Source: a virus
Reading direction: 5' to 3' (one strand)
Virus record (IMG/VR): IMGVR_UViG_3300042197_003579
Span: 1 to 40,684 of that record
Length of the DNA stretch: 40,684 nt
Shown: positions 4,134 to 40,684 of the stretch, piece after piece
How positions within the stretch are numbered: position 1 is the first letter of the stretch
Layout of the letters: each line of letters begins with the position of its first letter
The notes under the pieces: model-generated
Databases searched by the model: none
What the model was told of the DNA's origin: nothing
What the model saw: only the letters and a program-made list of their open reading frames with translations
Program-made: the position numbers and the translations under genes

Positions 4134-4140
4134 ATATCCT

Positions 4141-4515
4141 ATGCCTACATTTATCGGATTCAATACCCAAGGTCAGAACAAGAAATTTACTCTGACTGAT
4201 TTTGAGCTGGTCAAACGCGACCTAGCCAACGCGTTCAACATACAGCAAGGTCAGCTACCGGGCCGCCCCAATTATGGTACCACGCTGTGGAGTTTTTTGT
4301 TTGAGAATCAGAACAGTGACACCATAGAACAGATATTGGCCGAAGTGCAGCGTGTAGCCGGTGGTGATCCGCGACTGTATGTCAGCGACGCACAGGTATA
4401 CCCACAGCAAAATGGCATACGCATAGATATACAAGTACAGATAGTCAACAGCAGCACAGCCGAGCGCCTGGCGATATTTTTTGATCAAGAGACGCGTCGC
4501 GCCAGCTTCGTGTAA
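4141..4515 (+). CDS. gp25: Baseplate wedge protein, gp25-like (124 aa)
   Basis: The sequence starts MPTFIGFNTQG and continues FTLTDFELVKRDLANAF, RPNYGTTLW and a DPRLYVSDAQV segment. This matches the gp25/W family, which forms the inner ring of the baseplate wedge with gp6 and has relatives in contractile injection systems (TssE). The length is close to T4 gp25 (132 aa). An in-frame ATG at 4111 lies inside the spike gene, but family members begin at MPTFIGF, so 4141 is chosen; it is 7 bases after the upstream stop. Eight of its nine isoleucine codons are ATA, which is unusual for a genome of middling GC. Confidence 0.9.
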   Translation: MPTFIGFNTQGQNKKFTLTDFELVKRDLANAFNIQQGQLPGRPNYGTTLWSFLFENQNSDTIEQILAEVQRVAGGDPRLYVSDAQVYPQQNGIRIDIQVQIVNSSTAERLAIFFDQETRRASFV

Positions 4516-4553
4516 AACTACACAGATAATAAACTCGGTAAATACACAGAAGC
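4505..4553 (+). other. Possible alternative RNA stems between gp25 and gp6 genes
   Basis: GTGTA (4510-4514) can pair with TACAC at 4519-4523 across a 4-base loop. Alternatively, GCTTCGTGTA (4505-4514) can pair with TACACAGAAGC (4543-4553) with one bulged A. The two pairings exclude each other and span the gp25 stop and the leader of the gp6-like gene. A regulatory role is speculation; no U-run follows, so it is not a standard terminator. Confidence 0.3.
4537..4544 (+). promoter_or_regulatory. Late-promoter-like box GGTAAATA before the gp6-like gene
   Basis: GGTAAATA matches the T4 late consensus TATAAATA at six of eight positions and lies 21 bases before the ATG at 4566. It sits in one of the few intergenic gaps. 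The same 8-mer occurs before the small gene at 22566. A TAAATA core fits known variation in marine T4-like late boxes, but the motif is short and also turns up inside genes. Confidence 0.4.
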
Positions 4554-4565
4554 AGGCGAGGATCC

Positions 4566-26171: not shown

Positions 26172-26477
26172 ATGGATACTGATACAATCGTCGCCCATGC
26201 CAGAGCTAAGTTCGATCACGCCGCTGCACGGCGATTATTACGAGAAAAATACCAAGCCAAACTGATTTTTAGCCATGCTGGTGGCATGTTCCGTGCCACC
26301 CCTGAGATGATCACTTTTCTCGGCCTGTACGATGATCAGCGCATAGTCATACAAGATCTCTATGAAAATCCCATAGAAGTCAGTGCCCGAGAACTAGGCG
26401 ATCTGATGCGCCAACGCTGGCAAGAGCAGATGACAGCTTGGTATTTAGAACACGAGCAACTAAATCAACAGAGATGA
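26172..26477 (+). CDS. Small conserved-looking phage protein, function unknown (101 aa)
   Basis: Basic N-terminal helix (AKFDHAAARRLLREKYQAKL), a middle with GGMFRATPEMI and a QDLYENPIEV segment, and a helical C-terminus (MRQRWQEQMTAWYLEHE). I recognise this arrangement from short hypothetical proteins of T4-like marine phages but know no function. It is the first gene after the terminator and may have its own promoter: TTAAAATA just upstream is a weak box with a leader of under 10 bases. ATGA overlap (26474-26477) couples it to the glycosyltransferase-like gene. There are no membrane segments or cysteines. Confidence 0.7.
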   Translation: MDTDTIVAHARAKFDHAAARRLLREKYQAKLIFSHAGGMFRATPEMITFLGLYDDQRIVIQDLYENPIEVSARELGDLMRQRWQEQMTAWYLEHEQLNQQR

Positions 26478-27277
26478 ACTCAGGTGCGGTGATCGTGGCC
26501 CTGCGCAACGCGCAGATAGATTACATGGCTTTGGCGGCCTGGAGTGCCGGCAACATACGACGCCATCTAGACTTGCCAGTGGCCGTGATCACAGACGACA
26601 CCCAGGCTGATACATCGATGTTTGATCGGGTCATTGTTGTCGAAACACCACAGGACGCGGGTTTCAGGAATCTAGATAACACACAGCCCGCGATCTGGCA
26701 AAACACCAATCGTGTGGACGCGTTTGATCTATCACCATGGGGTCGCACTCTACTACTAGATGCTGACTATGTAGTGGCCAGCGCAGACTTGCGAGTGATC
26801 GTGGACAGTGCTGCAGCGATATCCACGCATCGCTGGGCGTATGATGTCACTGGCGGTAATGATCTCTCTGGTCTTAACTGGTTTGGAACTTCACGCATGC
26901 CGCAGTGGTGGGCTACGGTCATGGTATTTGATCGGTCTGATCGGTCCCGGATGGTGTTTGACTGCATGCGCATGATACGTGACAACTGGCCCCATTACGA
27001 GAGGATTTACGGTGTCAGCAAAGGACTGTATCGCAATGATCAGGCCCTGAGCATAGCATTGAACATAGAAAACGGACATACTCTGGAGACCACGGACATA
27101 CCATGGCGACTCGCTACAGTGATGCCAGAATGTGATATAAGAGTCATGGCGCAGGATCAATACCACATATCGTATCAAGATGGTCAAGGTCGAGACCGAT
27201 ACATCGTCACCAAAGGTCAAGACCTGCATGTCATGGCCAAGAAAGCACTAGAGGTCATTGTTGCCAATACGTCATGA
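26474..27277 (+). CDS. GT-A-fold glycosyltransferase-like protein (267 aa)
   Basis: A GT-A-like Rossmann start (GAVIVALRNAQIDYMALA) is followed by LPVAVITDD and by LLLDADYVVA, whose DAD (residues 96-98) fits the metal- and nucleotide-sugar-binding DXD motif. The DQALSIAL stretch near residue 190 resembles the DQ motif found before the catalytic end in several such transferases. In this fold a sugar from a nucleotide-sugar donor is moved to an acceptor; donor and acceptor are unknown here. An upstream in-frame start (26438) lies within the previous gene; ATG 26474 with the ATGA overlap is preferred. It heads a set of glycosyltransferase-like genes leading into the radical SAM series. Confidence 0.65.
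   Translation: MNSGAVIVALRNAQIDYMALAAWSAGNIRRHLDLPVAVITDDTQADTSMFDRVIVVETPQDAGFRNLDNTQPAIWQNTNRVDAFDLSPWGRTLLLDADYVVASADLRVIVDSAAAISTHRWAYDVTGGNDLSGLNWFGTSRMPQWWATVMVFDRSDRSRMVFDCMRMIRDNWPHYERIYGVSKGLYRNDQALSIALNIENGHTLETTDIPWRLATVMPECDIRVMAQDQYHISYQDGQGRDRYIVTKGQDLHVMAKKALEVIVANTS
27250..27254 (+). promoter_or_regulatory. Ribosome binding site AGAGG deciding a TTG start
   Basis: AGAGG lies 6 bases before TTG 27261 and 3 before TTG 27258. The frame of the next gene has no ATG upstream of its conserved-looking region and is closed by TAG at 27249-27251, so one of these TTG codons is the likely start. Confidence 0.5.
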
Positions 27278-28022
27278 GCGTGGATATCTTATCCCAGCTG
27301 TCAATACCTCAGATGTTGATTATGAAACCTGCGCCAGGCTGCTGCGCGAAAGCATACTGGATCATCACCCCGATGCACACGTCACCATCATTGACAGTGA
27401 CATGTTGCCAGATTATGCTCCAGGTGGATTTGCCAATGATTGGCTGTGTTGGCGACTGACTCCCTATCGACAGACCATAAAGCTAGAAGCCGACATGATC
27501 GCAGCGAGTCCTATAGATCACTGGTGGACTTTGTTTGAAAATAAAGATGTAGTGGTCAGCCAAGGGGCCAGAGATTTTTATGATCAAGTCACTGATTGCC
27601 GTCTTTATCGAAAGACGTTTGACGACAACGATTTACCTGATGTCTACAACGCCGTGACTTATTGGAGGAAGAGCCCGCTTGCTCAGGAGTTTTTTGACTG
27701 GACACGGAAGATTTTCCAAGATTGGCAACAGTATCGGAGTCTGCTGCGTTTTTCTGATGATGACCCAACCACCGACTTAGTCTACGCCATGGTGGCAAAA
27801 ATAATGGGAGCCGAAAACGTAACCTTACCTCCAGGCATCGGGCCCACGATAGTACACATGAAAGCTGGTATTATACCCTTGCGAGGGAGAGACTGGACCC
27901 GAGAATTGACATGGGAATCAGATCCCGTGAGGATCAACACCATCGCACAGTGGGGACTGGTACATTATCACGTGAAATCGTGGGCACAACAGTATCTAGA
28001 TGAACTCAAACAAAACCACTGA
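27261..28022 (+). CDS. Second glycosyltransferase-like protein, TTG start (253 aa)
   Basis: The N-terminus (RGYLIPAVNTSDVDY) leads into a Rossmann-type pattern: HVTIIDSDML, then LTPYRQTIKLEADMIAASPI. The E-A-D near residues 76-78 sits where GT-A enzymes have DXD. A YNAVTYWRKSPLAQEFFDW segment and a late DLVYAMVAKIMG helix are seen, and VHYHVKSW ends the domain. It is probably a sugar transferase related in fold to its neighbours but with a changed metal motif. The gene overlaps the previous one by 17 bases; no ATG fits, and the ATG at 27274 is in another frame, so TTG 27261 is chosen from the ribosome site. Confidence 0.6.
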   Translation: MPIRHERGYLIPAVNTSDVDYETCARLLRESILDHHPDAHVTIIDSDMLPDYAPGGFANDWLCWRLTPYRQTIKLEADMIAASPIDHWWTLFENKDVVVSQGARDFYDQVTDCRLYRKTFDDNDLPDVYNAVTYWRKSPLAQEFFDWTRKIFQDWQQYRSLLRFSDDDPTTDLVYAMVAKIMGAENVTLPPGIGPTIVHMKAGIIPLRGRDWTRELTWESDPVRINTIAQWGLVHYHVKSWAQQYLDELKQNH

Positions 28023-28356
28023 CAATTTCTGGGAAGTATGGCGTACTTTCCAGTGGCCTGATCATCTCGAACCAGAATACCGACTCTATTACAGCGATGA
28101 TGGTAAACCCATAATATACACCATGGAATCTCTGCCCGGTAACTACATCACAGTGAGCCAAGAGATCTATGTATCATCCCCTTACGACGTAAGAGTCAAT
28201 GATGGAAAGATTGAGTTCTTGAAAAAAACCAAGCCTGTGCCGAAGTTAGTACCTGACTTGACCGACGGGGTTGACTGCTGTGTCCGCGACGTATGCATAG
28301 TAACAAACCAAGGCCAAACGAGAAAATGGAGACTCCAAACACATGAAATCAGTTGA
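28000..28356 (+). CDS. Phage protein of unknown function (118 aa)
   Basis: The sequence is acidic and aromatic at the N-terminus (FWEVWRTFQWPDHLEPEY), then RLYYSDDGKPIIY, LPGNYITV and a VRVNDGKIEF strand. It ends with DCCVRDVCIV and a WRLQTHE strand. It looks like a small all-beta domain. I recognise the FWEVW...YRLYY pattern from hypothetical proteins of marine phages, always without a function. The paired Cys near residues 93-94 with another at 99 could bind metal, but the spacing is not a known motif. It overlaps the glycosyltransferase-like genes on both sides (23 and 14 bases), so it probably belongs to the same process. Confidence 0.65.
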   Translation: MNSNKTTDNFWEVWRTFQWPDHLEPEYRLYYSDDGKPIIYTMESLPGNYITVSQEIYVSSPYDVRVNDGKIEFLKKTKPVPKLVPDLTDGVDCCVRDVCIVTNQGQTRKWRLQTHEIS

Positions 28357-29269
28357 CGTCGCAGATCTAGATTGCATCTATCTCACTTATGATGAACCAC
28401 AGAAAGAGGACTTCTGGGTGAAAATACGCAACATGATTCCCTGGGCACGACGGGTCGATGGCGTCAAGGGATCTGATGCCGCGCACAAAGCCGCTGCTGC
28501 TGCCAGCAACACCGAACGTTTCATACTCATAGACGGAGACAACTTACCCGATCCGGGATTTTTCAATCTCACATTAAACATACCACCCGGTGACTGGGAA
28601 CGAGCAGTGTTCCGTTGGCGAGCGCGCAATCATGTCAATGGCTTGATGTATGGCAACGGTGGTATCTCGTCATGGACGCGTGAGTTCGTTGATTCCATGA
28701 GAACCCACGAGAATACCGATGGACGTGATGAGACCGTGGTAGAATTTTGTTTTGATCCCCTGTACTGGGCCATGCATGACTGCTACAGCACTACCTATCC
28801 CAATGGGTCAGCGTTCCATGCCTGGCGCGCTGGTTTCAGGGAAGGTGTCAAGATGTGCCTCAACAAAGGTTCGCGTCCCAGCCTCGCAGAATTCCGTGAT
28901 CGCGTGCATCACAGGAACCTAGATCATCTCACCATCTGGCACAACGTGGGCGGTGATACGGAACACGGAGAGTGGGCCATGGCTGGCGCTCGGCAAGGAA
29001 CTTACATGACCATGCTCACTGACTGGGACTATCGAGAAGTACAATGGTTTGACGCACTGCAAGAGATATGGAACAGGGTAGCACCACTGGCAGCCGAAGA
29101 TGTCGCGGAACAGTATGCCGGGGGCCTGAGGCAACAGTTGGATCTACCCATGATCTCAATGACTGCTGATCAGAGTGAATTTTTCAAACGCCACTATCGC
29201 AGTAATTGGTCGAATCAAGGTGTGATGGTCCGAGAGATTGATGTCATACGTCGGCAAGAAGGATGGTGA
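28343..29269 (+). CDS. Third glycosyltransferase-like protein (308 aa)
   Basis: It starts MKSVDVADLDCIYLTYDEPQ, then FWVKIRNMIPWARRVDG, which resembles the start of a GT-A fold. FILIDGDNLPD (residues 60-70) holds a DGD in the place of the DXD motif. The middle has FRWRARNHVNGLMYGNGG, which could line a donor pocket, and the C-terminal half has a histidine-rich HHRNLDHLTIWHN stretch. The family seems frequent in marine phage genomes but is, as far as I know, uncharacterised. The stop TGA overlaps the next ATG (TGATG at 29267-29271). Sugar transfer is inferred from fold-type motifs only; donor and acceptor are unknown. Confidence 0.55.
   Translation: MKSVDVADLDCIYLTYDEPQKEDFWVKIRNMIPWARRVDGVKGSDAAHKAAAAASNTERFILIDGDNLPDPGFFNLTLNIPPGDWERAVFRWRARNHVNGLMYGNGGISSWTREFVDSMRTHENTDGRDETVVEFCFDPLYWAMHDCYSTTYPNGSAFHAWRAGFREGVKMCLNKGSRPSLAEFRDRVHHRNLDHLTIWHNVGGDTEHGEWAMAGARQGTYMTMLTDWDYREVQWFDALQEIWNRVAPLAAEDVAEQYAGGLRQQLDLPMISMTADQSEFFKRHYRSNWSNQGVMVREIDVIRRQEGW
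29258..29263 (+). promoter_or_regulatory. Ribosome binding site GAAGGA for the first radical SAM gene
   Basis: GAAGGA ends 5 bases before ATG 29269. The alternative in-frame ATG at 29263 would overlap this site, so 29269 is the better start. Confidence 0.6.
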
Positions 29270-30339
29270 TGAGCTACTTCAATATCCCACCATCGTATAC
29301 TTTTAAATTGAAATCTATGCCGCGTGGTAAAAAACATTCGAGCACGATAGAAAATTCTTGTAATGCTCCATATCGAAACATCGTGATAGATTATAATTCT
29401 AATTGTTTGATTTGTAGGTGTGATGGATGGTTGCCGATACCAGTAGGGCAAGTACAAGATTTTGATACAGTTGAAGAAGTATTGTCGAGTCCTGTGGCTA
29501 AAATTTTACAAAAGGACATCGATGACAAAAAATTTACATGGTGTGCTGTAAATCATTGTGGGATAATAAATGGAAATGTCATTGATAACATATATCATCT
29601 ACAGATTAATATAGACGAAAGTTGCAATCTATGGTGTCCGAGTTGTCGTAGACAGCAAATTATGCATATCAACGGACCTGAATTCGAAAAAAAACATCAA
29701 GATTTTAAAAAAATATTACAATGGTTAGATAGATTCCAAGAAAAAATATTGATCACCCTATCGGGCAACGGTGATCCTTTGGCCAGTCTAATAGTCAGAC
29801 CAATGTTTCATGATTTCCGGCCCAAATCAACTCATAAATTACTTCTCAAGACTAATGGTCTATTGATCAAGAAACAATTATCAAAAAGCGATATTTTTCA
29901 TAACATCGTAAATTTTAGTATCAGTGTTGATGCTGGGACCGAAGATGTCTATCACAAAATCAGACGTGGCGGAAAATGGTCTTCGTTGATAGAAAATTTG
30001 GATTTTTTAGCTGAAAACAATAAATCAAAAATTACCACACTAAATTACGCCATACAAAATTCAAATTTTCGAGACATTGAGAATTTCGTAGCATTGTGTG
30101 AGAGATATGATTTTTCGGGTGTCGTACACGAGTTAGACGATTGGAGTACATGGAATTCTTCAGTGGTCGTTGACCCCGATTCCTGGACCATCAACAACGG
30201 CATATTTCCTGACCACAATGTTTTAGACAAGGAACACAAAAATTTCCTAGTGTGTAAAGAATACGTCAACAAAGTCGTTGATAAAAAAAATATTCGCATA
30301 ACACCGAGAGTTTTGCAATTGCTTGACATAAGAAAATAA
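29269..30339 (+). CDS. Radical SAM protein 1, divergent, AT-rich gene (356 aa)
   Basis: The [4Fe-4S]/SAM motif is CNLWCPSC (Cys 119, 123, 126). The usual GGE motif is replaced by SGNGDP (165-170); KTNG and SISVDAG strands follow as expected for a radical SAM barrel. Before the barrel, Cys 31, 46, 49, 51, 92 and 97 form a SPASM/Twitch-like auxiliary cluster region. Enzymes of this type make 5'-deoxyadenosyl radicals to modify peptides, sugars or other substrates; this substrate is unknown. Its DNA is much more AT-rich than its neighbours (14 G/C in 29701-29760), with many A-runs, which suggests a separate origin. It lacks the EYxRxG and tail motifs shared by the other six. Confidence 0.8.
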   Translation: MSYFNIPPSYTFKLKSMPRGKKHSSTIENSCNAPYRNIVIDYNSNCLICRCDGWLPIPVGQVQDFDTVEEVLSSPVAKILQKDIDDKKFTWCAVNHCGIINGNVIDNIYHLQINIDESCNLWCPSCRRQQIMHINGPEFEKKHQDFKKILQWLDRFQEKILITLSGNGDPLASLIVRPMFHDFRPKSTHKLLLKTNGLLIKKQLSKSDIFHNIVNFSISVDAGTEDVYHKIRRGGKWSSLIENLDFLAENNKSKITTLNYAIQNSNFRDIENFVALCERYDFSGVVHELDDWSTWNSSVVVDPDSWTINNGIFPDHNVLDKEHKNFLVCKEYVNKVVDKKNIRITPRVLQLLDIRK

Positions 30340-30342
30340 TCA

Positions 30343-31728
30343 ATGATAGAAGAATCAAAAAGCCAATTTTTATCTGCTGCAGAATCGATAAAAAATCGAC
30401 TAGACTCTGTTAGTCCCAGCCTCTGCCTCGCCAAATGGAGGCAGGTCAGTTTGCATCTCGCCACGGGCATGAACAACAGTTGCTATCATCCCCCGTTGCA
30501 TCGTATACCCATCAGCGAGATCGCTCGGACACCATCGGCGCTGCACAATACATTGTATAAAAAACAACAGCGTGAGATGATGCTGCGCGGAGACCGCCCC
30601 GCAGAATGCCAGTATTGCTGGAACATGGAGGATCTCGGTGAGATGAGCGACCGTCATTATCGGTCGGGTGAACCTTGGGCTAGCCGACATTTTGAGTCAA
30701 TCGCACACAGTTCGGGTCATGAAGATGATGTCATACCCAGTTATGTCGAAGTCAATTTCAATCATGCCTGCAATCTCCGTTGCAGTTATTGTAGCCCGCA
30801 ATTCTCGTCTTCGTGGCACGATGAGACACAGCGCCATGGTGCCTATCCCACCAGTACTCCCCACAACGCGCCGGAGCATTTCCAAGGAGATCGCCGGCCC
30901 ATACCCTCGAGGGAATACAATCCCTACGTAGAAGCTTTCTGGAAGTGGTGGCCTGATCTCTATCCCGAGCTCACGCACTTCCGCATGACCGGGGGAGAAC
31001 CTCTCATGGACCGCAACACTTACCGGGTGTTTGACTATGTGCTAGAACATCCCAAACCCGACCTACATCTCTGCGTGACATCTAATTTTTCTGTAAAAGA
31101 CGCGCTCTGGCAGCGGTACAAAGGTTATGTGCGACAACTCTGTGATCGTGACCGTATCGAGCATTTCATGCAATATGTCAGTGTCGATGGGTGGGGACAG
31201 CGTGCTGAATACATGCGGCACGGTCTTGATTTTGATCTCTTATGGTCTAGGGTCAACGAATTCTTAGAAGAGAACCCCTACGTCAACAGCCTGACGTTTA
31301 TCATCACGATGAACAATCTATCAGTCACGAGCTTAAAGGAACTGTTCCAGGGAATACTGGACCTACGCCGCAAGTATACCAAAACCTATCAAAAGATATG
31401 GTTTGACACACCTGTGTTGCGACAGCCCACATGGCAGAGCCTGCAGATCCTACCTGAAAGTTATGCGCGTATCCTGGAAAATATCTCCGTCTGGATGCAA
31501 GACAACAAAGATGCTGATCATGGATTCCGTGACTTTGAAGTGCAGAGGTTGCAGCGAGATATCGCGTGGATGAGGCGCGATCAATCACATGATCATCGAC
31601 AAGCCCGTGCTGATTTTTACAGATTTTTTGCCGAGCATGATCGCCGTCGTGGCACTGATTTCATCGCTACATTTCCTGAAATGCGAGCTTGGTGGGAGGA
31701 ATGTCGGGGACATGCTCAACGGTCGTAA
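30343..31728 (+). CDS. Radical SAM protein 2, N-terminal Twitch-type, class A (461 aa)
   Basis: Cluster motif CNLRCSYC (Cys 143, 147, 150); TGGEP (216-220) binds SAM in this family. Upstream Cys 28, 47, 89 and 92 (the last two in CQYCWNMED) would hold an auxiliary cluster. The barrel carries SVDGWGQRAEYMRHG, and the C-terminus carries EHDRRRGTDFIATFPEM. The KW....SxCxHPPxH and CxxCWxxED segments are shared with the proteins at 32848 and 34179 (class A here). The gene follows protein 1 by 3 bases and overlaps the GT-B-like gene by 17. Oxygen-sensitive radical chemistry is expected; the substrate is unknown. Assignment as radical SAM is firm. Confidence 0.88.
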   Translation: MIEESKSQFLSAAESIKNRLDSVSPSLCLAKWRQVSLHLATGMNNSCYHPPLHRIPISEIARTPSALHNTLYKKQQREMMLRGDRPAECQYCWNMEDLGEMSDRHYRSGEPWASRHFESIAHSSGHEDDVIPSYVEVNFNHACNLRCSYCSPQFSSSWHDETQRHGAYPTSTPHNAPEHFQGDRRPIPSREYNPYVEAFWKWWPDLYPELTHFRMTGGEPLMDRNTYRVFDYVLEHPKPDLHLCVTSNFSVKDALWQRYKGYVRQLCDRDRIEHFMQYVSVDGWGQRAEYMRHGLDFDLLWSRVNEFLEENPYVNSLTFIITMNNLSVTSLKELFQGILDLRRKYTKTYQKIWFDTPVLRQPTWQSLQILPESYARILENISVWMQDNKDADHGFRDFEVQRLQRDIAWMRRDQSHDHRQARADFYRFFAEHDRRRGTDFIATFPEMRAWWEECRGHAQRS

Positions 31729-32860
31729 CCTGGTACTAGACACTCTCAGTGAAGTCTATGGTTTGTTGCTGCCCTGGCGTACACATGAATTCTGGAACTA
31801 CGCATCTCATCAAGACATACCCGATTCAATCTATGTGTTTGGGCGAGCACAGCTGATAGAAAATCTTGACAGGGTCCGCGAGCTCTGCCATGACCCGAGG
31901 TTCGTCGTGGTGTTTGGTGACAGTGCCGAAGGTTCCACTACCATAGAAAGCCAGTTGCGGGCATTGGGTCTAGAAGATCTAGTGATGTCGGGTAAAATGT
32001 TGTTGATATCTGGTGGAGAACAAGATCCTGGGTATCATTACATACATCACGAACATTTCCTGATACGCGTACTAGATTACGAAGAAAATCTCCAGGAGAT
32101 ATCTCGCTCGGAGGAAATTTTCACGAAAAAACCAAAACCCTATAAGTTCTTATATCTCAACGGACGAAGCCGCCCGCACAGGAAATACCTATGGGAAAGA
32201 TTCAGAACATTGGGTATCTTGGATCACGCACTGTGCAGCATGCTTGACGGTCGGAGTAGCGATGATTCGGTTTTCAGCATCATCAAACATGGACAAGAAC
32301 TGATGCGTACCAATACTCCAATCCAGTTGCTACCAGATCAATACGAAGTACCCATGTTTCGTGGATTCCGACTCACTGATCAAGGAAATCCACAACAAAA
32401 TGTCAAGAACGAATTATTCCAGTCTACCTGGGGAGATATCTACCTACAGGCCGATGCTTACATCGATACATACTTTAGTTTGGTCACCGAGACAGTGTTT
32501 GAAACTCACTACAGTTTCCGCACGGAAAAGATCGCCAAACCCTTGGCCATGGCACATCCCTGGATAGCAGCAACCAATGCAGGGTTTTATCGAGACATCA
32601 GGAATCTAGGTTTCCAGAGTTTTAGCACGCTGATTGACGAGAGCTTTGACACCATCGATGATCACCGGGATCGCATGGATCGTATCGTAGCAGTGGTGCG
32701 GGATCTCTGCGATCAGGATCTTGACAGTTTCGTTGCTGCTGCCAAAGATATCTGTAAATATAACCAACAACATCTCCAAGAATTAATCCCAGATATAAAA
32801 AAGAATTTTCCTGGTGATTTTTTTAGATTCGTAGAAAAACATAGGCTATGCAAGATCTAG
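31712..32860 (+). CDS. GT-B-like glycosyltransferase candidate (382 aa)
   Basis: The C-terminal half has TETVFETHYSFRTEKIAKPLAMAHPWIAA (cited as TETVFE and TEKIAKPLAMAHPWI; about residues 258-290), then LGFQSFSTLIDESFD. This E-K-x-x-K-P-x-x-x-x-H-P pattern is typical of GT-B donor-binding domains such as GT10-like enzymes. The N-terminal half has a YKFLYLNGRSRPHRKYLW segment. There is no signal peptide. A longer frame begins at 31589 inside the previous gene but adds only antisense-looking hydrophobic residues, so ATG 31712, with GGGAGGA 11 bases before it, is chosen. It sits between radical SAM genes, which ties sugar transfer to them. Confidence 0.62.
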   Translation: MLNGRNLVLDTLSEVYGLLLPWRTHEFWNYASHQDIPDSIYVFGRAQLIENLDRVRELCHDPRFVVVFGDSAEGSTTIESQLRALGLEDLVMSGKMLLISGGEQDPGYHYIHHEHFLIRVLDYEENLQEISRSEEIFTKKPKPYKFLYLNGRSRPHRKYLWERFRTLGILDHALCSMLDGRSSDDSVFSIIKHGQELMRTNTPIQLLPDQYEVPMFRGFRLTDQGNPQQNVKNELFQSTWGDIYLQADAYIDTYFSLVTETVFETHYSFRTEKIAKPLAMAHPWIAATNAGFYRDIRNLGFQSFSTLIDESFDTIDDHRDRMDRIVAVVRDLCDQDLDSFVAAAKDICKYNQQHLQELIPDIKKNFPGDFFRFVEKHRLCKI

Positions 32861-34182
32861 AATTCCGACAGCAAGTGCTGGATCCAATCTCTGACAGTTT
32901 CTGCGGTGCCAAATGGTACAATGCCACTATATGGCTGGGATCGGGCATGACTACCAGCTGCCATCACCCCCCGGCACACAAGGTAAATATAGAAGATGTC
33001 ACGGCCAACCCCAGAGCGCTACACAACACACCGCAAAAGAAACAAGATCGCGCGCAGATGCAACAGGGCGAAAGGCCACCAGGCTGCGAGTATTGCTGGA
33101 AGATCGAAGACATGGGGCGAGATGCTGTCAGCGACCGTGTTTACAAGAGCCGGATATACCCTATTGCAGAACTTCAACGAGCCGCAGCGACACCCCAGGA
33201 TCAAGACGTCAATCTACGCACTCTCGAAATCTCCTTTGACCGCACTTGTCAGTTTGCTTGTAGCTATTGCAATCCTGCTTTTTCTAGCACCTGGGTTAAG
33301 GACATCCGTGCTAATGGTGCATATGCCGATCTTGTATCCGATGGCCGTAACCATTTTACTCACACTCATGATAGCGCTCAGCTGTTTCGCTTTGGAGAAC
33401 GCAATCCATACGTGGACGCGTTCTTCCGGTGGTGGGAAACAGACTTGCACGCCACGCTAGATGAACTCAGGATCACCGGGGGCGAACCTTTGATGTCGGG
33501 TTACACATGGCAGCTGATAGATTGGTTCCGCGATAATCCTGGTCGGAGCCGCACTCGCCTGGCCATCAATTCTAATCTCGGCATGGAATGGAGCGTGATA
33601 GAACGCGCCATAGACAGTTGCCATGGCATAGATCTTGATATCTACACCAGCCAGGAAAGCCTAGGACCTCACGCTGAATACATCCGCGACGGATTAGATT
33701 ACACGGAATGGTGCATGAACATGCAACGTATCATGCAGGGCAAAAAACTGCGGGCTTTGCATGTGATGTGTACCATCAATGCCTTGTGTTTAGAAAGCCT
33801 GCCGGAGTTCCTGAGCTATCTCATGTTGTGGAAACAAGAATACGGCCGAGATTTTCCAAATTTCACGCTAAACATCTTGCGGTTTCCCAGTTTCCAGAGT
33901 CCGTTGGTGCTGCCCGATGACATACGCATACATCACCGTGATAGACTGCAGGCTTGGCTGGATCAATGGCAGCACAATGTCATGCTGCAGCCACACGAAC
34001 GCAATCAGGTGCGGAGATTAATAGATTATCTGGACGTGGTGAAAACCCCACATAGTGATGCGTTTGATCTACCGTCCCTGCACAACGATTTCCGTAGATT
34101 CTACGAACAATACGATCAACGTCGCGATAAGAATTTCGCGCAGACATTTCCTAACCTAACGGATTGGTACCACACACTATGA
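32848..34182 (+). CDS. Radical SAM protein 3, class A (444 aa)
   Basis: Motif CQFACSYC (Cys 134, 138, 141) and TGGEP (210-214). Auxiliary cysteines precede it at 19, 38, 80 and 83 (CEYCWKIED). It is a clear paralogue of the next protein: both share FCGAKWY, ALHNT.QKKQ, FDRTCQ.AC.YCN, ITGGEP.MSG.TW and a final YDQRR....F..TFP. Where most SPASM enzymes have SxD, it reads TSQES before LGPHAEYIRDG. It overlaps the GT-B-like gene by 13 bases and the next gene by 4 (ATGA). A radical modification of an unknown substrate is expected. Confidence 0.87.
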   Translation: MQDLEFRQQVLDPISDSFCGAKWYNATIWLGSGMTTSCHHPPAHKVNIEDVTANPRALHNTPQKKQDRAQMQQGERPPGCEYCWKIEDMGRDAVSDRVYKSRIYPIAELQRAAATPQDQDVNLRTLEISFDRTCQFACSYCNPAFSSTWVKDIRANGAYADLVSDGRNHFTHTHDSAQLFRFGERNPYVDAFFRWWETDLHATLDELRITGGEPLMSGYTWQLIDWFRDNPGRSRTRLAINSNLGMEWSVIERAIDSCHGIDLDIYTSQESLGPHAEYIRDGLDYTEWCMNMQRIMQGKKLRALHVMCTINALCLESLPEFLSYLMLWKQEYGRDFPNFTLNILRFPSFQSPLVLPDDIRIHHRDRLQAWLDQWQHNVMLQPHERNQVRRLIDYLDVVKTPHSDAFDLPSLHNDFRRFYEQYDQRRDKNFAQTFPNLTDWYHTL

Positions 34183-35555
34183 GCGATCAAAAATTTAAAC
34201 CTGTACGACAGATACCTATCCTGGATTATAAAAAACAAGTGTTAGATACTAAATCGGCGAGTTTCTGCGGCGCTAAATGGTATCATGCCAGCATGTGGTT
34301 GAACGCGGGTTGGACTACGAGCTGCTTCCATAACCCTACGCATCAGATTGATCCCGAAGCTATCAAAATCAACCCCAAAGCATTACACAACACTGCCCAG
34401 AAGAAACAAGAGCGACTGATGATGCAAAAAGGTGAAAAACCCATTGGCTGTCAGTTTTGCTGGGTCATGGAAGATCTAGATCCCAACAATGTATCTGATA
34501 GAGTGTGGCAAAGTACTCAGTTTGACGAATCTCTATTAGACAAGGCATTTGAAAACAGCCACGAAGATGACTATGACTTGGGTTATCTAGAGATAGCGTT
34601 TGATCGTACCTGCCAGATGGCCTGTACCTATTGCAACTCAGCCATATCAAGCACTTGGGCCAAAGACATACGAAAAAATGGTGCTTACCAAGGTTTGGTC
34701 ACTGATAACCGCGGACACTATTTAGGCACTGCTGACCAATTACAGCTATTTGTTTACCCTGAAGAAAACGTCTACACCGAAGCTTTTTTTAAGTGGTGGA
34801 ATTCGGATCTGCATCGGACCCTGCAGCAGCTCAGGATCACCGGTGGCGAACCCATGATGAGTGGATGGACCTGGAAGTTGTTGGATTGGCTGAAAAACAA
34901 TCCCAACAAAAGCAAGACAAGGATAGAGATGACCACTAATTTGGCTTATAGCCATGATACGTTGTTGCGATTTCTAGATAGCATCAGTGGTCTCACCCAA
35001 CCAGTCTGGATTTATACCAGTGGAGAATGTGTGGGCGAAAAAGCCGAATACATCAGAGACGGTCATGATTGGGAGCTCTGGCAAAGAAACATTGAGACAG
35101 TGTATGAGAGCAAACTGATCGAAAACGTGTCAGTGATGGCTACTATGAGTGCCCCGGCCACTGATGGATTCATGGATTGGTTGAATTTTTTGCTTGATCA
35201 GAAAAAACAGCGTGGTTCAAAATGGATGATGATGAGCGTGAATCCTGTGAGATTCCCAACTTTTCATAACGTAGCAGTTTTGCCTATGAGCATGCGTTTG
35301 GACTATAGTCAACAGATACTAGAGTTTATGTCCCGTGACGATGTGCAAACTAACTTCATCCCTTGGGAGAAAGAGAATATCAATAGATTCGCAGTGTACC
35401 TAGAAAAAATGGACGTGCCGCATAGAGAATACGAATACGATGTCGCCCAGTTACCAGGAGATTTCAAGAGATTTTATAGCCAATACGATCAGCGGCGAGG
35501 TAAAGATTTTGTCAAGACTTTTCCGAGGTTAAAATCTTGGTACGATTCACTATGA
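34179..35555 (+). CDS. Radical SAM protein 4, class A, tandem paralogue of protein 3 (458 aa)
   Basis: Motif CQMACTYC (Cys 145, 149, 152), TGGEP (221-225), auxiliary Cys 30, 49, 91 and 94 (CQFCWVMED). The TSGEC before VGEKAEYIRDG replaces the common SxD sequence, as in protein 3. The C-terminus is YDQRRGKDFVKTFPRL. Similarity to protein 3 runs end to end, so the pair arose by duplication, perhaps to act on neighbouring positions of one substrate or as a heterodimer. The start at ATG 34179 (ATGA overlap) is preferred to an in-frame ATG at 34164 within protein 3. Confidence 0.87.
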   Translation: MSDQKFKPVRQIPILDYKKQVLDTKSASFCGAKWYHASMWLNAGWTTSCFHNPTHQIDPEAIKINPKALHNTAQKKQERLMMQKGEKPIGCQFCWVMEDLDPNNVSDRVWQSTQFDESLLDKAFENSHEDDYDLGYLEIAFDRTCQMACTYCNSAISSTWAKDIRKNGAYQGLVTDNRGHYLGTADQLQLFVYPEENVYTEAFFKWWNSDLHRTLQQLRITGGEPMMSGWTWKLLDWLKNNPNKSKTRIEMTTNLAYSHDTLLRFLDSISGLTQPVWIYTSGECVGEKAEYIRDGHDWELWQRNIETVYESKLIENVSVMATMSAPATDGFMDWLNFLLDQKKQRGSKWMMMSVNPVRFPTFHNVAVLPMSMRLDYSQQILEFMSRDDVQTNFIPWEKENINRFAVYLEKMDVPHREYEYDVAQLPGDFKRFYSQYDQRRGKDFVKTFPRLKSWYDSL

Positions 35556-37252
35556 CCAGAGATGATTTTTTGGTGGAATGTCAGCGACGATATGACGTGA
35601 TATCTGTTATCGATTTGGATTTCTGGACTGATGATTATGAATCATCAAAAAGAAGACTGAAAACTATCTGCGAAGAAAACTACAAAGAAAGTTATGCTCC
35701 CAATGAAAAGATAATTTTCCTACATCAACATGACATTTATGTAAAAAATAATCCAGCTGGATTGATCTTGCGGAACTTGCAAGTCATTTTAAATGAGACG
35801 GATATAACCAGTTGCTTTGTCATCGTCGCATCGACTAATCCACGAATCCATGACGAAGTGTTGGAAATAAAAGATATTAATTTAGATGGTAATAATATGT
35901 CAATCGAAAAAATTCAAGGTACTTGGACTAGCCAAGAAATAGAAAATCATCCTTACTCCCAGGATGAAGTTTATCAGTATGGGTCAGTAAATCCCATCAA
36001 GATCAAACTACAAGACATCAGTGAACGCAAAAAATTTCTCTTGGCAGAAAGCAAACGATTCTGCATATATCCATGGATACATCTGCATGCTTACCCTACA
36101 GGAGAGGCATGGCCTTGTTGTCATGCTGAAATGGCCGCAGGACCAGTGGGATCTGCTAGGCAACGCACTCTGCAAGAATTATGGAACAGTGATCGTATGC
36201 GAGAACTCAGGCTTGACATGCTCAACGAGCAACACAATAATTATTGTGTGAGATGTTATGAGCAAGAGGAGGCGGGGTTTTTTGGTGGTCGGCAAAGCGC
36301 TAACAAGCATCATGGACATCTGATCGACAGGATCGATAAGACCAAGCCAGATGGTAGTTACGATGACTTCCAGATGACTTATTGGGATATAAGATTTAGT
36401 AATCTATGCAATCTTCGCTGTCGTAGTTGCGGACACATTTTTTCCAGCCAATGGTATCAAGATCAAGCCAAGCTGGCCGGAGATGACTGGAAAAAGCGCA
36501 ATCAAGTCCTAAATTATGCCGGACGTTATGAGACTGACATGTGGGAGCAGCTACTAGAGCATATTGATTACGTTGAGCAGATTTATTTTGCCGGCGGCGA
36601 ACCCTTGCTCATGGAAGAGCATTATAATATTCTTGAAGAACTAGAACGACGAGGTAGATTCGACGTGAGGTTGGTTTACAACACTAATTTCACAGAGATA
36701 AACCTCAAGGATCGCGTAGTGTTTGATTATTGGAAAAAATTCAAATCAGTAGCAGTAGGAGCTAGTCTTGACGCATCGGGTGAGAGAGCCGAATACATAA
36801 GAAAAGGTACCCACTGGGAAAAAGTCGAATACAATCGACGGATGATGTTAGAGATATGCCCCGAAGTAGATTTTTATATATCTCCTACCCTGTCGATAAT
36901 GAACGCTTGGCACCTGCCGGACTTTCACAGAGATTGGGTAGAACGAGGGTTTATCAAAGCACGTGATCTGAATGTAAATGTTTTGCAAGATCCAATACAT
37001 TATAGGGTAGATATCGCCACAGGAGAATACAAGGAAAAATTGTTGAAAAAATATCAGGAACATTTAGAATGGCTGCGTCCACAAGATGATCTGAATCGAG
37101 CCACCCAGGGTTTTGAAAGCATAATAAATTTTATGATGGCCACAGACAATGTACACCTTATTGATCAGTTCTGGAAAAAAACTCATCAGCTCGATGACAT
37201 TAGGAAAGAATCGATACTTGATGTAATACCAGAGCTCGGCGAGCTAAAATGA
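35552..37252 (+). CDS. Radical SAM protein 5, class B, with an extra N-terminal domain (566 aa)
   Basis: The radical SAM motif CNLRCRSC (Cys 286, 290, 293) and AGGEP (347-351) follow a SPASM-like region: CIYPWIHLHAYPTG with CC at 189-190 and CVRC at 232-235. Residues 1-135 form an additional alpha/beta domain (HQHDIYVKNNPAG, then CFVIVASTNPRIHDEV) that I cannot name. Its DNA is AT-richer than the rest (18-20 G/C per 60 bases at 35641-35700 and 35881-35940). SLDASGERAEYIRKG lies in the barrel, and QLDDIRKESILDVIPEL ends the protein. It is the longest of the seven. It overlaps by ATGA on both sides. Confidence 0.87.
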   Translation: MTRDDFLVECQRRYDVISVIDLDFWTDDYESSKRRLKTICEENYKESYAPNEKIIFLHQHDIYVKNNPAGLILRNLQVILNETDITSCFVIVASTNPRIHDEVLEIKDINLDGNNMSIEKIQGTWTSQEIENHPYSQDEVYQYGSVNPIKIKLQDISERKKFLLAESKRFCIYPWIHLHAYPTGEAWPCCHAEMAAGPVGSARQRTLQELWNSDRMRELRLDMLNEQHNNYCVRCYEQEEAGFFGGRQSANKHHGHLIDRIDKTKPDGSYDDFQMTYWDIRFSNLCNLRCRSCGHIFSSQWYQDQAKLAGDDWKKRNQVLNYAGRYETDMWEQLLEHIDYVEQIYFAGGEPLLMEEHYNILEELERRGRFDVRLVYNTNFTEINLKDRVVFDYWKKFKSVAVGASLDASGERAEYIRKGTHWEKVEYNRRMMLEICPEVDFYISPTLSIMNAWHLPDFHRDWVERGFIKARDLNVNVLQDPIHYRVDIATGEYKEKLLKKYQEHLEWLRPQDDLNRATQGFESIINFMMATDNVHLIDQFWKKTHQLDDIRKESILDVIPELGELK

Positions 37253-38475
37253 AAATACCACATGATAAATTTTGTGTGCTGCCTTGGGTCAGCCTAGAAA
37301 CTTCTCCCATTGGCACAGTAAGGCCTTGCTGTCTCGCCGAAGAAGAGATCACAGACGATCAAGGAGAGAAGTTTGATCTCATGACCGCAGATCTCTTAGC
37401 GGTGCAGAATAGTCAGTACATGAAAAAATTACGTGAGGATTTCTTGCAAGGCAAAAAACCCACTACTTGTCGTAAATGTTGGAACGAAGAACGAGCAGGG
37501 CGCACCAGCAAGCGCATGCATACCCTGGATCGGCTCAAGCACATGGTCGCAGACGAGTCATGGACCAGCGACGCCAAACCTCTGATGTTTTTGGATCTCA
37601 AACTAGGCAACATCTGCAATTTAAAGTGTCGCATCTGCGGTTCTTGGAGTAGCAGCACGTTCGCAGTAGAAGAACTCAACTATCTTAGTCGAGAAGAAGA
37701 GGTAAAGAAAAAAAGCTTCCACTATACCATGCTGCGCAAAGGGGCATGGCCACGCGAAAACGAAAATTTCTGGGACCAGATAGATCAGATCATAGATCAG
37801 ATACAGTATATCGAGTTTACTGGCGGTGAACCGTTCATGATACGCGAGCATTTCCGATTACTGCAGGGTATAGTGGATCGTGGTCGGGCTGGATCGGTGG
37901 AGATACACTATAACACCAATGGCACGCATTGGCCCGAGGAAGCCGAAGATATCTGGCGCCATTTCCGTACAGTGGAGATAGCTTTTAGTATCGACGATGT
38001 CGGTGATAGGTTTGAGTATCAGCGTACCAATGCTGTCTGGTCAGAAGTCCTGGCAAATATTGAAAAATTCAGAGCTTTACGGGAAAAATACCCCGGCAAG
38101 ATACAGCTACAAGTATGCAGCACTATCAATGTTTTCAACGTCATGTATTTGGAAACACTGGCCAGTTGGATCGACCAGCAGGGATTTGATTTCTGTTATT
38201 GGAACATGATGCATGAGGCTTACTATTTCTCGGTGAGCACTCTACCCGACACCGCAAAATCTGTGGTGATTGATGGATTGAAATCTGCACAGGTAACCGA
38301 ACATCATCGACGGGAGTTTGATCGAGTAGTGGGATTCATAGAAAATGGAGCTAGCCTGGATGGAAATATCCTTCGCATGAAGATACAAGACTTAGACTGG
38401 CGCCGTGGCCAAGATCTCCGAGATCATCATCCTGAGTTGGCCGAGGCCATAAATTATGCAGGCCCCCAGTCATAA
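37249..38475 (+). CDS. Radical SAM protein 6, class B (408 aa)
   Basis: A compact protein that begins almost directly with the SPASM-like part: Cys 9 in CVLPWVSLETSPIG, CC at 27-28, CRKC at 74-77. The radical SAM motif is CNLKCRIC (Cys 123, 127, 130), with TGGEP (191-195). The barrel has SIDDVGDRFEYQRTN; the tail has DLDWRRGQDLRDHHPEL. Together with proteins 5 and 7 it forms class B, marked by CxxPW...CC in place of the class A cysteine pattern. It overlaps the previous gene by ATGA and the next by 20 bases. The substrate is unknown. The absence of any extra domain makes it a good model for the minimal architecture of the set. Confidence 0.88.
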   Translation: MKIPHDKFCVLPWVSLETSPIGTVRPCCLAEEEITDDQGEKFDLMTADLLAVQNSQYMKKLREDFLQGKKPTTCRKCWNEERAGRTSKRMHTLDRLKHMVADESWTSDAKPLMFLDLKLGNICNLKCRICGSWSSSTFAVEELNYLSREEEVKKKSFHYTMLRKGAWPRENENFWDQIDQIIDQIQYIEFTGGEPFMIREHFRLLQGIVDRGRAGSVEIHYNTNGTHWPEEAEDIWRHFRTVEIAFSIDDVGDRFEYQRTNAVWSEVLANIEKFRALREKYPGKIQLQVCSTINVFNVMYLETLASWIDQQGFDFCYWNMMHEAYYFSVSTLPDTAKSVVIDGLKSAQVTEHHRREFDRVVGFIENGASLDGNILRMKIQDLDWRRGQDLRDHHPELAEAINYAGPQS

Positions 38476-39757
38476 ACCCGAAACACTGTGCATGGCACCG
38501 TGGACACACACCTACCTCTCGCCACAGACTGAGCGTAGGATGTGTTGCGCCAGCCGCGAACCAGCACAAAATTTTCAGCAATATATAGACACACAATCTG
38601 GCACAGGTCGATATATCCCCATGACCTTAGACCAGCATTGGAACAGCGAACATATGCGTTCGGTGCGACGCAGGATGATGGCCGGAGAAGAACTAGCGGA
38701 ATGCCAAGTCTGCGACAAAAAACTACTCAACACAGATGTGTACCGCAGCTATTTCTGGCATCTGTTCCAGCACCGATATCCGGAAATATGGGACACCACT
38801 GATGACACTGGATACACTACCATGCTGCCTGTGAGCTGGGATTACAGATTCAGCAATCTCTGTAATTTTAAATGTCGTACCTGCGGCGATATGTTGAGCT
38901 CGGCCTGGGAGAGCGAACAGCGGCAGCATGACATGATAGACTGGACCGACCCAAAACATAACTGGATGCGACCTGAAGTCAAACGCGAGATTGTTAGATT
39001 CCAGAATACTGTCATCGAGGAAGAATTCGCAGCAGCGGTAGAACAACATCGTGTGGAAGAGATTTACTGGGTTGGTGGAGAGCCTTTGATGTACGAGCAG
39101 CATTGGCGTTATATGCAACGTATTATAGAACTAGGAGATGGAGATAAACTTTATGCTAGATACAATACCAATCTTTCACGTATTAGCAGTGGTGGGTGTG
39201 ATTTGTTTGATGATATTTTATGTAATATTCGTGATTGGCAAATCTGCGCGTCGATCGACGGAACAGGACAAATCGGAGAATATATCCGAACGGGCCTTTC
39301 TTGGTCCGTTTTTCTAGAAAATTTCCAGCACGGATTGGCGAGGTGTCGACATCCGCGACAGATGAGATTGGATTTTACTCTGACGTTGCCGGGACTATTT
39401 GAAGTAGTGAACATGCAACGGTTGTCAGATCAGTTGGGTGCAGATTTGCTGGTCAAAGTAATTTTCGGGTTCACACCTGATATCATCATGAGTCCCTTGG
39501 CATTGCCCAGGTCGATCCTAGATCGTAAAGTCAATGAATTACTCCCGCACACGCGTGGCGCACTGCAAGACGTACTGAGGCAATTACAGCAACGGCCGAA
39601 CTTCCAAGAGTCTTGGCCTAACGAATACGAAGCTGCCTTACGGCAGGGAAAATCTCGTATACAAAAACTAGAACAGATACGCGGTGACAAATTTTGCATG
39701 GAACATATATTGGCCAATGACAAGGAGATCTATGACTGGTGGCAAGATATTAGATAG
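38456..39757 (+). CDS. Radical SAM protein 7, class B (433 aa)
   Basis: SPASM-like front: Cys 12 in CMAPWTHTYLSP, CC at 30-31, CQVC at 83-86. Radical SAM motif CNFKCRTC (Cys 136, 140, 143); VGGEP (206-210). SIDGTGQIGEYIRTG is present in the barrel; the C-terminal tail is a weaker version of the shared motif (KLEQIRGDKFCMEH). A patch near 39121-39260 is AT-richer than the surrounding DNA. It overlaps protein 6 by 20 bases and the next gene by 26. The first ATG (38456) is kept, since the conserved cysteine follows at residue 12. Radical chemistry on an unknown substrate is expected. Confidence 0.87.
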   Translation: MQAPSHKPETLCMAPWTHTYLSPQTERRMCCASREPAQNFQQYIDTQSGTGRYIPMTLDQHWNSEHMRSVRRRMMAGEELAECQVCDKKLLNTDVYRSYFWHLFQHRYPEIWDTTDDTGYTTMLPVSWDYRFSNLCNFKCRTCGDMLSSAWESEQRQHDMIDWTDPKHNWMRPEVKREIVRFQNTVIEEEFAAAVEQHRVEEIYWVGGEPLMYEQHWRYMQRIIELGDGDKLYARYNTNLSRISSGGCDLFDDILCNIRDWQICASIDGTGQIGEYIRTGLSWSVFLENFQHGLARCRHPRQMRLDFTLTLPGLFEVVNMQRLSDQLGADLLVKVIFGFTPDIIMSPLALPRSILDRKVNELLPHTRGALQDVLRQLQQRPNFQESWPNEYEAALRQGKSRIQKLEQIRGDKFCMEHILANDKEIYDWWQDIR

Positions 39758-40684
39758 AATCGTGATAAATCTACGGGATCGGGACGCGGGCGATCTACTG
39801 CCTTTGTACATAGACATCCGTGATAACTCCCTCAGCCGGAAATGGCTACAGGCTATCAATGCGCTCTTACAAGATGGATATCATCTAGAAAAAAATTATT
39901 GTTTCCTCGGATTCGTTGATCATGCCCGGGACGGTGATTACATCTTAGATCAGGTCAATCGCAGCATAGCGGCCATAAATGACGCGAAACTGGGATACGT
40001 GATCGATGAACATTTCTCCATGGGCAATGCCATCACCGATGCGCCCATGGGCGATCGGGTGGCTGGTAGGAACATAATACACAGCAAGCTCAACTGGCTA
40101 CATAGATATTTCGAAGATCTACAAGGAGTCAGTGATGCCATCAGTGAATTTTATCTCAAGGCAGATCCCACCACTCGTTGGCACATACGCCAGTTGAATT
40201 TACTGTGCCATGAGTTTGAATGCTGGGCGTTGAGCTATCGTAAGCAGATCGAAGCGCCTGAATGGCAGAGGCCTAGCCAGCTCATGTGCTGGCTAAACGC
40301 ACCTAGATTCGTGATTGACGAGGATGATCTAGAATTGTTTGGGATAGACACCATAAATCGTCCCTTGGGTGGAGTATTTGTAGGCGTGAACAAGGCCGTG
40401 GGAAAACATCATTGGGAAGTGTTCAACGACGAAGGCCGGGACAGCAAGATCGGTAAGCTGGTATCAACCACGCTGAAGAGCCAGACCGAAGCCGCGGGAG
40501 ATTTTGATATAGAATGGGGCAGGGATCCCGGGGAGTATTATTGGCAGAAGGTCAGGCTGCAGGAGTTTGCCCAATGGTTAGTTGACAATGGGTTTGATCC
40601 ACAGGATCGGAGCCTCACCATAGGTCATCCACAGATAGGACAGGTAGATCTATCAGCTTCATTTGGCAACAGCGATCACTGGGC
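39732..40684 (+). CDS. Unknown phage protein, cut by the window end (at least 317 aa)
   Basis: ATG 39732, inside the end of radical SAM gene 7, opens a frame that stays open to the last base. The product begins MTGGKILDRIVINLRDRD, then has LPLYIDIRDNSLSRKWL, IDEHFSMGNAITDAP, IRQLNLLCHEFECWALSYRK, GVFVGVNKAVGKHHWEVF and AGDFDIEWGRD. It appears mixed alpha/beta and acidic, with His and Asp/Glu clusters that might bind a metal. I do not recognise a characterised family. The 26-base overlap places it in the same transcript as the radical SAM genes, so it may be a partner protein or an enzyme of the same pathway. Its C-terminus is not in view. Confidence 0.72.
   Translation, partial: MTGGKILDRIVINLRDRDAGDLLPLYIDIRDNSLSRKWLQAINALLQDGYHLEKNYCFLGFVDHARDGDYILDQVNRSIAAINDAKLGYVIDEHFSMGNAITDAPMGDRVAGRNIIHSKLNWLHRYFEDLQGVSDAISEFYLKADPTTRWHIRQLNLLCHEFECWALSYRKQIEAPEWQRPSQLMCWLNAPRFVIDEDDLELFGIDTINRPLGGVFVGVNKAVGKHHWEVFNDEGRDSKIGKLVSTTLKSQTEAAGDFDIEWGRDPGEYYWQKVRLQEFAQWLVDNGFDPQDRSLTIGHPQIGQVDLSASFGNSDHW

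Follow-up and report, generated by a model that had tools for sequence, protein, structure and literature searches.

What does a phage do with a run of seven radical SAM (rSAM) genes? The DNA analysed here, a 40,684-nt stretch that we call the window, covers part of the genome of an uncultured T4-like jumbo phage, and the window's gp5/gp25/gp6-like baseplate genes rule out a host-gene origin of the string. The seven rSAM open reading frames, all complete and, like every window gene described below, on the + strand, occupy positions 29263-39757, and the string lies directly 3′ of the fibre genes w6 and w7, with overlaps of 4-20 bases between its genes, some of which abut by 3 instead. An earlier note on this DNA had assigned CxxxCxxC plus a GGEP or SGNGDP motif to all seven, which we confirmed, and had proposed a phage modification pathway, which our analysis supports.

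Six of the genes combine CxxxCxxC with GGEP: w14 (30343..31728; CNLRCSYC), w16 (32848..34182; CQFACSYC), w17 (34164..35555, starting at TTG or at the 34179 ATG; CQMACTYC), w18 (35537..37252; CNLRCRSC), w19 (37249..38475; CNLKCRIC) and w20 (38456..39757; CNFKCRTC). The same six pass the curated cut-off of 170 bits, a full-length model score, of the NCBIfam N-terminal twitch rSAM family NF033640, scoring 325, 292, 267, 405, 342 and 282 bits, respectively, and in all of them the N-terminal part supplies auxiliary-cluster cysteines (C...C(C)...CxxC), a feature absent from the earlier note. The outlier is w13 (29263..30339), which differs in having CNLWCPSC with SGNGDP and reaches 36 bits against the NF033640 cut-off of 170, with 35 bits for PF04055; a DNA-level search matched PF04055 to six of the seven genes (E 7.8e-15 to 2.4e-6). 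NF033640 is a family name without a function; here it divides into at least five ancient families of orthologues that are deployed jointly, and whole records of the lineage hold 5-19 rSAM genes of this kind.

Across relatives, w14, w16, w18, w19 and w20 form the lineage core (core rSAM 1 to 5), and the order w12-w14-w16-w18-w19-w20-w21-carbamoyltransferase is fixed in 52 of the 53 relatives spanning the region, followed next by an amidinotransferase in 50/51, with w12 and w21 each present in all 53 spanning loci. An independent sample drawn by the baseplate gene contained the string in 20/20 informative contigs, namely those reaching the site; in 15 of these the carbamoyltransferase is found, and the rest stop close to its position or short of it. 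Four contigs of the baseplate sample lack the family, but they break off within the giant gene and so do not count as counter-examples. The genes therefore co-occur rather than being scattered singly in relatives. The battery of seven described in the earlier note is real in the window, but w13 and w17 are optional extras outside the conserved core: close orthologues of w13 occur in few loci only, and w17, likewise with few close orthologues, forms its own clade beside its sister w16.

The seven cluster cysteines (auxiliary plus CxxxCxxC) are 100% conserved in the five core families, with 71-81 orthologues each, which excludes a chance origin of the seven genes and rules out chance motif matches. 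Values of dN/dS of ~0.04-0.16 in the five families indicate strong purifying selection; w19 retains 64-82% identity in 80 viral contigs, and w18 has an N-terminal extension of ~170 aa. The tree resolves five clades, every one with marine T4-like members, and marine T4-like contigs have a single representative of every core family; this recurrence of each clade in marine phages rules out gene-duplication noise. Marine contigs L168-L172 carry the core rSAM families of the string; these closest genome contigs have bacterial or archaeal titles but resemble phage contigs that ended up in MAG bins. Conservation of the five families is about on par with that of the baseplate gene, a level that speaks against a casual role in auxiliary metabolism. 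Each core family also has at least one further near-invariant cysteine. As rSAM epimerases use a cysteine as H-atom donor, these residues could, by analogy, be possible H-atom donors.

To the 3′ side, the window ends inside w21 (39732..40684, truncated; the frame opens at 39684, with a probable start at 39732 after AGGAG), the next conserved gene after w20, so that the carbamoyltransferase and amidinotransferase, invariant partners lying just outside the window in relatives, were invisible to the earlier note. The carbamoyltransferase of relatives scored 159+124 bits in Pfam, and their amidinotransferase matches the structures of SxtG, AGAT and StrB1 (1bwd). The AlphaFold model of w21 is fair (pLDDT 81) and found no fold match in the PDB.

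The 5′ part of the string is populated by glycosyltransferase (GT)-like genes, which are always present alongside the rSAM string. By motif, w9 (26438..27277, start codon uncertain) and w10 (27258..28022) are GT-A-like, the former with a DxD (LLLDADYVV) whose D108/D110 are invariant among 44 orthologues and the latter with KLEADM, whose E77/D79 are invariant among 53. The invariant string member w12 (28343..29269, ~72% identity) has a GT-A-like N-terminal half with a DGDN motif, and its model (pLDDT 79) gave weak Foldseek matches, mostly to GT-A enzymes (E 0.03, TM ~0.25). The gene interleaved among the rSAM genes, w15 (31712..32860 by its homologue-based start; longest ORF from 31589), has 57 orthologues at ~40% identity, and its RTEKI.KP...HP...GF..F pattern makes the GT-B-like label of the earlier note plausible rather than proven, as w15 has no Pfam, PHROG or useful PDB match. 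No GT assignment in the string reaches the cut-off of a family, w9, w10 and w15 being placed by motifs only; w9 had no Pfam or useful PDB match, w10 no Pfam or PDB match, and PDB profile searches with w12, w21, w15, w9 and w10 returned no usable match. Two small genes, w8 (26172..26477, 101 aa, conserved) and w11 (28000..28356, 118 aa), lie among them.

Upstream of these, w6 (23370..25094) is a tail-fibre protein with PHROG tail/virion hits and a peptidase_G2/intramolecular-chaperone-like C-terminal end, the Pfam Peptidase_G2 match being weak and below cut-off. The following gene, w7 (25105..26109), is always directly 5′ of the GT/rSAM string and is Ser/Thr-rich (29%), with a mean Ser+Thr of 29.8% over 35 orthologues against 7-23% in the other window proteins, making it a candidate substrate with a presumed role in the virion.

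Starting from the genes present and their order, conservation and purifying selection, the cluster ligands, the co-occurrence and the lack of membrane genes, all directly observed, we tentatively favour, with nearly even confidence, the reading that the string forms the heart of a soluble virion-decoration pathway of the phage's own, in which an unusual glycan on a fibre protein is made and edited; the substrate and virion target are what we infer. The glycan product is probably guanidinylated or carbamoylated. In such a pathway, the GT-A/GT-B-like w9, w10, w12 and w15 would glycosylate Ser/Thr residues of a fibre protein, w7 being the likeliest and w6 the alternative, and the five non-redundant twitch rSAMs would each perform one C-H step on the glycan or its precursor, such as epimerisation, dehydrogenation, dehydration or similar, in an order and with a chemistry that we can only suggest. 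The carbamoyltransferase would add carbamoyl groups and the amidinotransferase guanidino groups. Optional genes, including extra rSAM genes, sugar epimerases, aminotransferases, heptose-type nucleotidyltransferases and methyl- or sulfotransferase-like genes, may diversify the outer structure between phages, while in some phages MetK could supply SAM, an MTA/SAH nucleosidase could remove 5′-deoxyadenosine and SufT/PaaD could help load Fe-S clusters. Gene position suggests that all this would occur late in infection. In favour of the reading count the fixed string and its recurrence in the baseplate sample, the invariant cysteines and low dN/dS, the five clades with marine members, the place right behind the fibre genes, which other rSAM strings occupy in Atu_ph07 and Phosso, the Ser/Thr content of w7, the rSAM pairs beside fibre-like genes, the matches of the carbamoyltransferase and amidinotransferase, the sugar-pathway, MetK, MTA/SAH nucleosidase and SufT genes of variable slots, and the lack of polytopic membrane proteins. 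Counted against this reading were w7, which is without structural annotation and whose virion location is presumed, the weak GT support just described, and the fact that SPASM/twitch rSAMs act on peptides and nucleotides too.

The last point bears on a different use of the same enzymes, in which the rSAMs directly alter side chains of a fibre or virion protein through epimerisation, thioether formation or C-C crosslinks, with the GTs and group-transferases acting separately. SPASM hits in the Pfam search point to an auxiliary Fe-S domain of the type found in peptide maturases, the peptide maturase SkfB is the closest rSAM structure by PDB profile, albeit weakly (E 4e-4), which was also counted against glycan decoration, and rSAM genes repeatedly adjoin fibre-like genes, as do additional rSAM pairs at other places in genomes of this lineage (L208, L210). 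However, no PqqD/RRE domain was matched in Pfam, no small variable-core ORF was seen, w11 being conserved along its whole length among 59 orthologues, where a RiPP precursor would vary in its core, and the enzymes invariably accompanying the string, an amidinotransferase and a carbamoyltransferase, are neither peptidases nor transporters. We consider direct side-chain chemistry unlikely, though the most credible of the alternatives. A RiPP cluster is rejected, as neither precursor, RRE nor exporter was found, in agreement with the earlier note, which saw no precursor, transporter or leader-binding domain.

The earlier note had left the target as a glycan, a virion protein or the host surface. 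An altered host cell-surface glycan (LPS or capsule), leading to superinfection exclusion or receptor change, would fit the sugar-pathway genes that occupy variable slots of relatives, as MetK, MTA/SAH nucleosidase and SufT genes also do, and pelagimyophage rSAM cassettes do lie within a host-recognition cluster (PMC7029224). Nevertheless, 81 neighbourhoods contained no polytopic membrane protein, flippase, polymerase and exporter included, with controls positive, and hence neither the membrane flippase nor the membrane GT of GtrABC-type O-antigen modification; the string sits among virion genes, and accessory genes vary while the core is fixed. The lack of polytopic proteins lowers this option, which we judge improbable, leaving a glycan or virion protein as the presumptive target.

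Just as improbable, in our estimate, is a soluble small molecule unrelated to the virion, whether a cofactor, an antimetabolite or a weapon against competitors or the host. The combination of amidinotransferase, carbamoyltransferase and rSAM enzymes resembles a natural-product toolkit, and SAM-cycle genes are present, as in Baikal phage VP_139 (PMC7678222), but the overlapping frames are embedded in the tail-fibre region, GT-like genes are always present and an exporter is lacking. Hypermodification of phage DNA is very improbable. Some phage DNA hypermodification pathways do use rSAM enzymes, carbamoyltransferases and glycosyltransferases, and QueD- and QueE-like genes occur elsewhere in the G018 record; against this, thymidylate-synthase-type hydroxymethylase (PF00303) was found in 0/14 jumbo records, QueC gave no convincing match in 21 records (two marginal hits only), and the neighbours are tail genes, not nucleotide-metabolism genes.

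Returning to glycan decoration, its most specific form, a new protein modification in which a glycan on a tail-fibre protein is edited in five radical steps, guanidinylated and carbamoylated, made entirely by phage-encoded enzymes and older than the divergence of jumbo and marine T4-like phages, is a bolder and rather unlikely proposal. If the decoration model is true, virions would be modified in a way that constitutes a new class, and the string would offer new glycan- or protein-acting radical enzymes. That a phage may carry many rSAM enzymes had drawn comment in 2010 and again in 2017, without an explanation; here the enzymes fall into five orthologous families whose partners are fixed. 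The cultured Sinorhizobium phage Phosso, Atu_ph07 and Vibrio phage K566 have analogous strings and make the model testable. Searches by tblastn in cultured phages with w12, w17, w21, marine w7 and marine w12 gave no match.

In Atu_ph07 and Phosso, w6 orthologues (E 4e-53 and 2e-57) also lie 5′ of rSAM strings, with 3-4 rSAM genes directly after the w5/w6 orthologues and interleaved with small unknown genes. These rSAMs belong to other families, none above the NF033640 cut-off, and neither phage matched w7-w12, w15 or w21. The enzyme classes of the string are also those of aminoglycoside-type pathways, in which rSAM, amidinotransferase and carbamoyltransferase toolkits act on sugars (NeoN, BtrN, StrB1, TobZ); the amidinotransferase matches StrB1 itself, and the rSAM likeness is by class only.

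The idea that phages were known to carry rSAM genes only singly is wrong. In Campylobacter, phages CP220 and CPt10 carry 11-12 rSAM genes each, published in 2010, including an interchangeable module of five rSAM genes and a glycine amidinotransferase beside baseplate genes; the authors called the two modules dissimilar and likely non-essential (PMC2853527). Like the present phage they are T4-like, with five rSAM genes and an amidinotransferase near virion genes, the window's own amidinotransferase being presumed from relatives. By contrast, their rSAMs score at best 31-35 bits against NF033640 and so are not members of that family, they gave no carbamoyltransferase match, and the five genes here are orthologues, keep one order and evolve under strong purifying selection. 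TARA_ERS488813_N000010, a marine T4-like genome that has PaaD as well as 12 rSAM genes (PMC5332604), and the pelagimyophages (PMC7029224) are, compared by description only, alike in their many rSAM genes, a SufT/PaaD companion and a position by tail-fibre genes; the accessible parts of these accounts give no orthology, order, partners or mechanism. Multi-rSAM phages were thus already known, and the lineage described here is a new and far more conserved variant.

The window, a 40,684-base IMG/VR virus record whose genes are numbered here w0–w21, encodes gp5-, gp25- and gp6-like baseplate proteins, which place it among the T4-like jumbo phages. Its gp6 protein shares 33–36% identity with those of Phosso, Atu_ph07, XaC1, 121Q and RaK2, and gp6 is followed by a giant virion gene (8099–22546; 4,815 aa), as in Phosso, Atu_ph07, RaK2 and 121Q. 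The genes w6 (tail fibre) and w7 (25105–26109; Ser/Thr-rich product) precede a string in which adjacent genes abut or share 4–20 bases, the overlapping arrangement described in the earlier note, and the seven radical SAM (rSAM) genes claimed there (29263–39757) are all real. Six of them scored 267–405 bits against NF033640, the NCBIfam model of N-terminal twitch rSAM proteins (cut-off 170 bits), and all six have an auxiliary Fe-S domain at the N terminus; unlike these six, w13 falls outside NF033640. The rSAM gene w18 has a ~170-aa N-terminal extension (35537–36050) ahead of its twitch domain, and its length differs between relatives from about 420 to 575 aa.

A scan with the rSAM gene w19 retrieved 80 viral contigs (64–82% identity) with the constant order w7, w8, w9, w10, w11, w12, w14, w15, w16, w18, w19, w20, w21 and carbamoyltransferase, interrupted by variable insertions, beyond which an amidinotransferase gene and two glycosyltransferase (GT)-like genes lie on the opposite strand. 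All eight marker genes occurred in the same order in 52 of 53 loci spanning w12 to the carbamoyltransferase, so the rSAM genes co-occur in relatives rather than being scattered singly; in the 53rd, w18 was present at 73% identity but its coverage was too low for the filter used. The amidinotransferase came next in 50 of 51 loci. Five rSAM genes were present in most spans and six or seven in some, indicating that w13 and w17 are optional additions in the window's phage and that the proposed battery of seven comprises five constant, ordered members and two extras. Whole records contained 5–19 NF033640 matches, with 19 lying within 156 kb in the record of contig L059. In the L059 record (819 aa; G015:C1:63352–65715) and the L154 record (939 aa; G043:C1:7905–10598), a single open frame encodes two NF033640 domains, either through natural fusion of adjacent rSAM genes or because of a sequencing join. 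In G024, G025, G037 and G045 (L195–L200, L203–L206), a further group with rSAM-type genes is found on the opposite strand, upstream of the genes for the baseplate hub; in two contigs it includes w15-like genes.

Given that this locus set was found through an rSAM gene, a second sampling was made with gp6. The NF033640 cut-off was exceeded in 19 of 24 contigs, a twentieth (G025) held w5–w14 before being cut at the contig end, and the remaining four stop inside the giant gene, short of the site, placing the string in 20 of 20 informative contigs. Fifteen of these 20 contained the carbamoyltransferase; in the other five, rSAM matches lie at or near the contig end, suggesting truncation ahead of its position. 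Identity to the window in five contigs with both genes was similar for w19 (66–72%) and gp6 (63–73%).

In alignments of 71–81 orthologues for each of the five core families, all three cysteines of the rSAM motif were 100% conserved, as were the auxiliary cysteines, which for these families bears out the cluster cysteines read earlier. Each family also kept at least one further near-invariant cysteine and a distinct, strongly conserved signature, as would be expected for five different substrates or steps. Core-gene dN/dS between related phages was about 0.04–0.16, values that are approximate because dS is high. The five families separate in a tree of 104 rSAMs, with w16 weakly supported and w18 paraphyletic to marine members. 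Marine T4-like contigs from MAG bins contain a member of each family, indicating that the set either is older than the split of these phage lineages or moves as a block. Although they were assigned to MAGs of bacteria and archaea, the string-bearing contigs L168–L172 look like phage DNA, and NF033640 matches in such MAGs may therefore be misassigned to cells.

The downstream partner is a NodU/TobZ-kind carbamoyltransferase (Pfam, 159 and 124 bits), and the opposite-strand partner matches structures of SxtG, L-arginine:glycine amidinotransferase and StrB1 (E 1e-15 to 1e-10), with which its catalytic His and Cys regions align. Variable slots hold sugar epimerases, a PseC-like aminotransferase, a heptose-type nucleotidyltransferase, an FkbM methyltransferase and extra rSAMs. 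Of greatest significance for rSAM chemistry, these slots further include MetK (431 bits), SufT/PaaD and an enzyme resembling MTA/SAH nucleosidase. MetK occurs in 5 of 24 whole records and the nucleosidase family in 6 of 24, consistent with helpers rather than fixed parts. Low-scoring GT-A matches were obtained for w12, and motifs hint that w9, w10 and w15 may be GTs; a search with the predicted model of w21, the window's last gene, found no fold match. Some relatives carry in a variable slot a signal-peptide gene resembling a periplasmic substrate-binding protein (L075:1249–2169, L076:1249–2169).

As to substrate, chemistry and target, we infer a phage-encoded decoration pathway acting on virion fibre protein. 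A membrane-protein test that detected known polytopic proteins among controls was applied to 81 neighbourhoods (1,470 ORFs) and found none, apart from a 116-aa ORF that is probably spurious and a single borderline case, a result that disfavours a lipid-linked host-surface glycan or an exported product. Modification of phage DNA by the string is unlikely; one relative does have QueD- and QueE-like genes away from the string (L209:267–791 and 4326–5171, in the 349-kb record G018), but no convincing QueC was found in G018, and the two possibly represent part of a 7-deazaguanine pathway that is distinct from the string. Regarding fibre decoration, extra rSAM pairs elsewhere in the lineage adjoin fibre-like genes (L208, 1059–3135 then 3610–5891; L210, 13200–14000 then 10661 to 9465), and the presence of different rSAM families at equivalent sites suggests a recurrent link of rSAM chemistry with tail proteins. 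The Ser/Thr-rich w7 (29% Ser+Thr; orthologue mean 29.8%) is a candidate substrate.

The cultured relatives Atu_ph07 and Phosso likewise carry 3–4 rSAM genes at this position, behind w5 and w6 orthologues, but these belong to other families and, unlike six of the seven in the window, none exceeds the NF033640 cut-off. In Campylobacter phage CPt10, a module of five rSAM genes and an amidinotransferase lies right behind the baseplate genes, and many rSAM genes were already known in CP220/CPt10 (PMC2853527). Two further papers describe a marine T4-like genome with 12 rSAM genes (PMC5332604) and multi-rSAM pelagimyophages (PMC7029224). In a Baikal phage, rSAM occurs together with MTA/SAH nucleosidase and methionine adenosyltransferase (PMC7678222). 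In open-licence papers, no description of the five-family module was found, nor any of its gene order or partners. Phages with many rSAM genes are a known, unexplained phenomenon, of which the ordered five-family module with its partners is a new variant.
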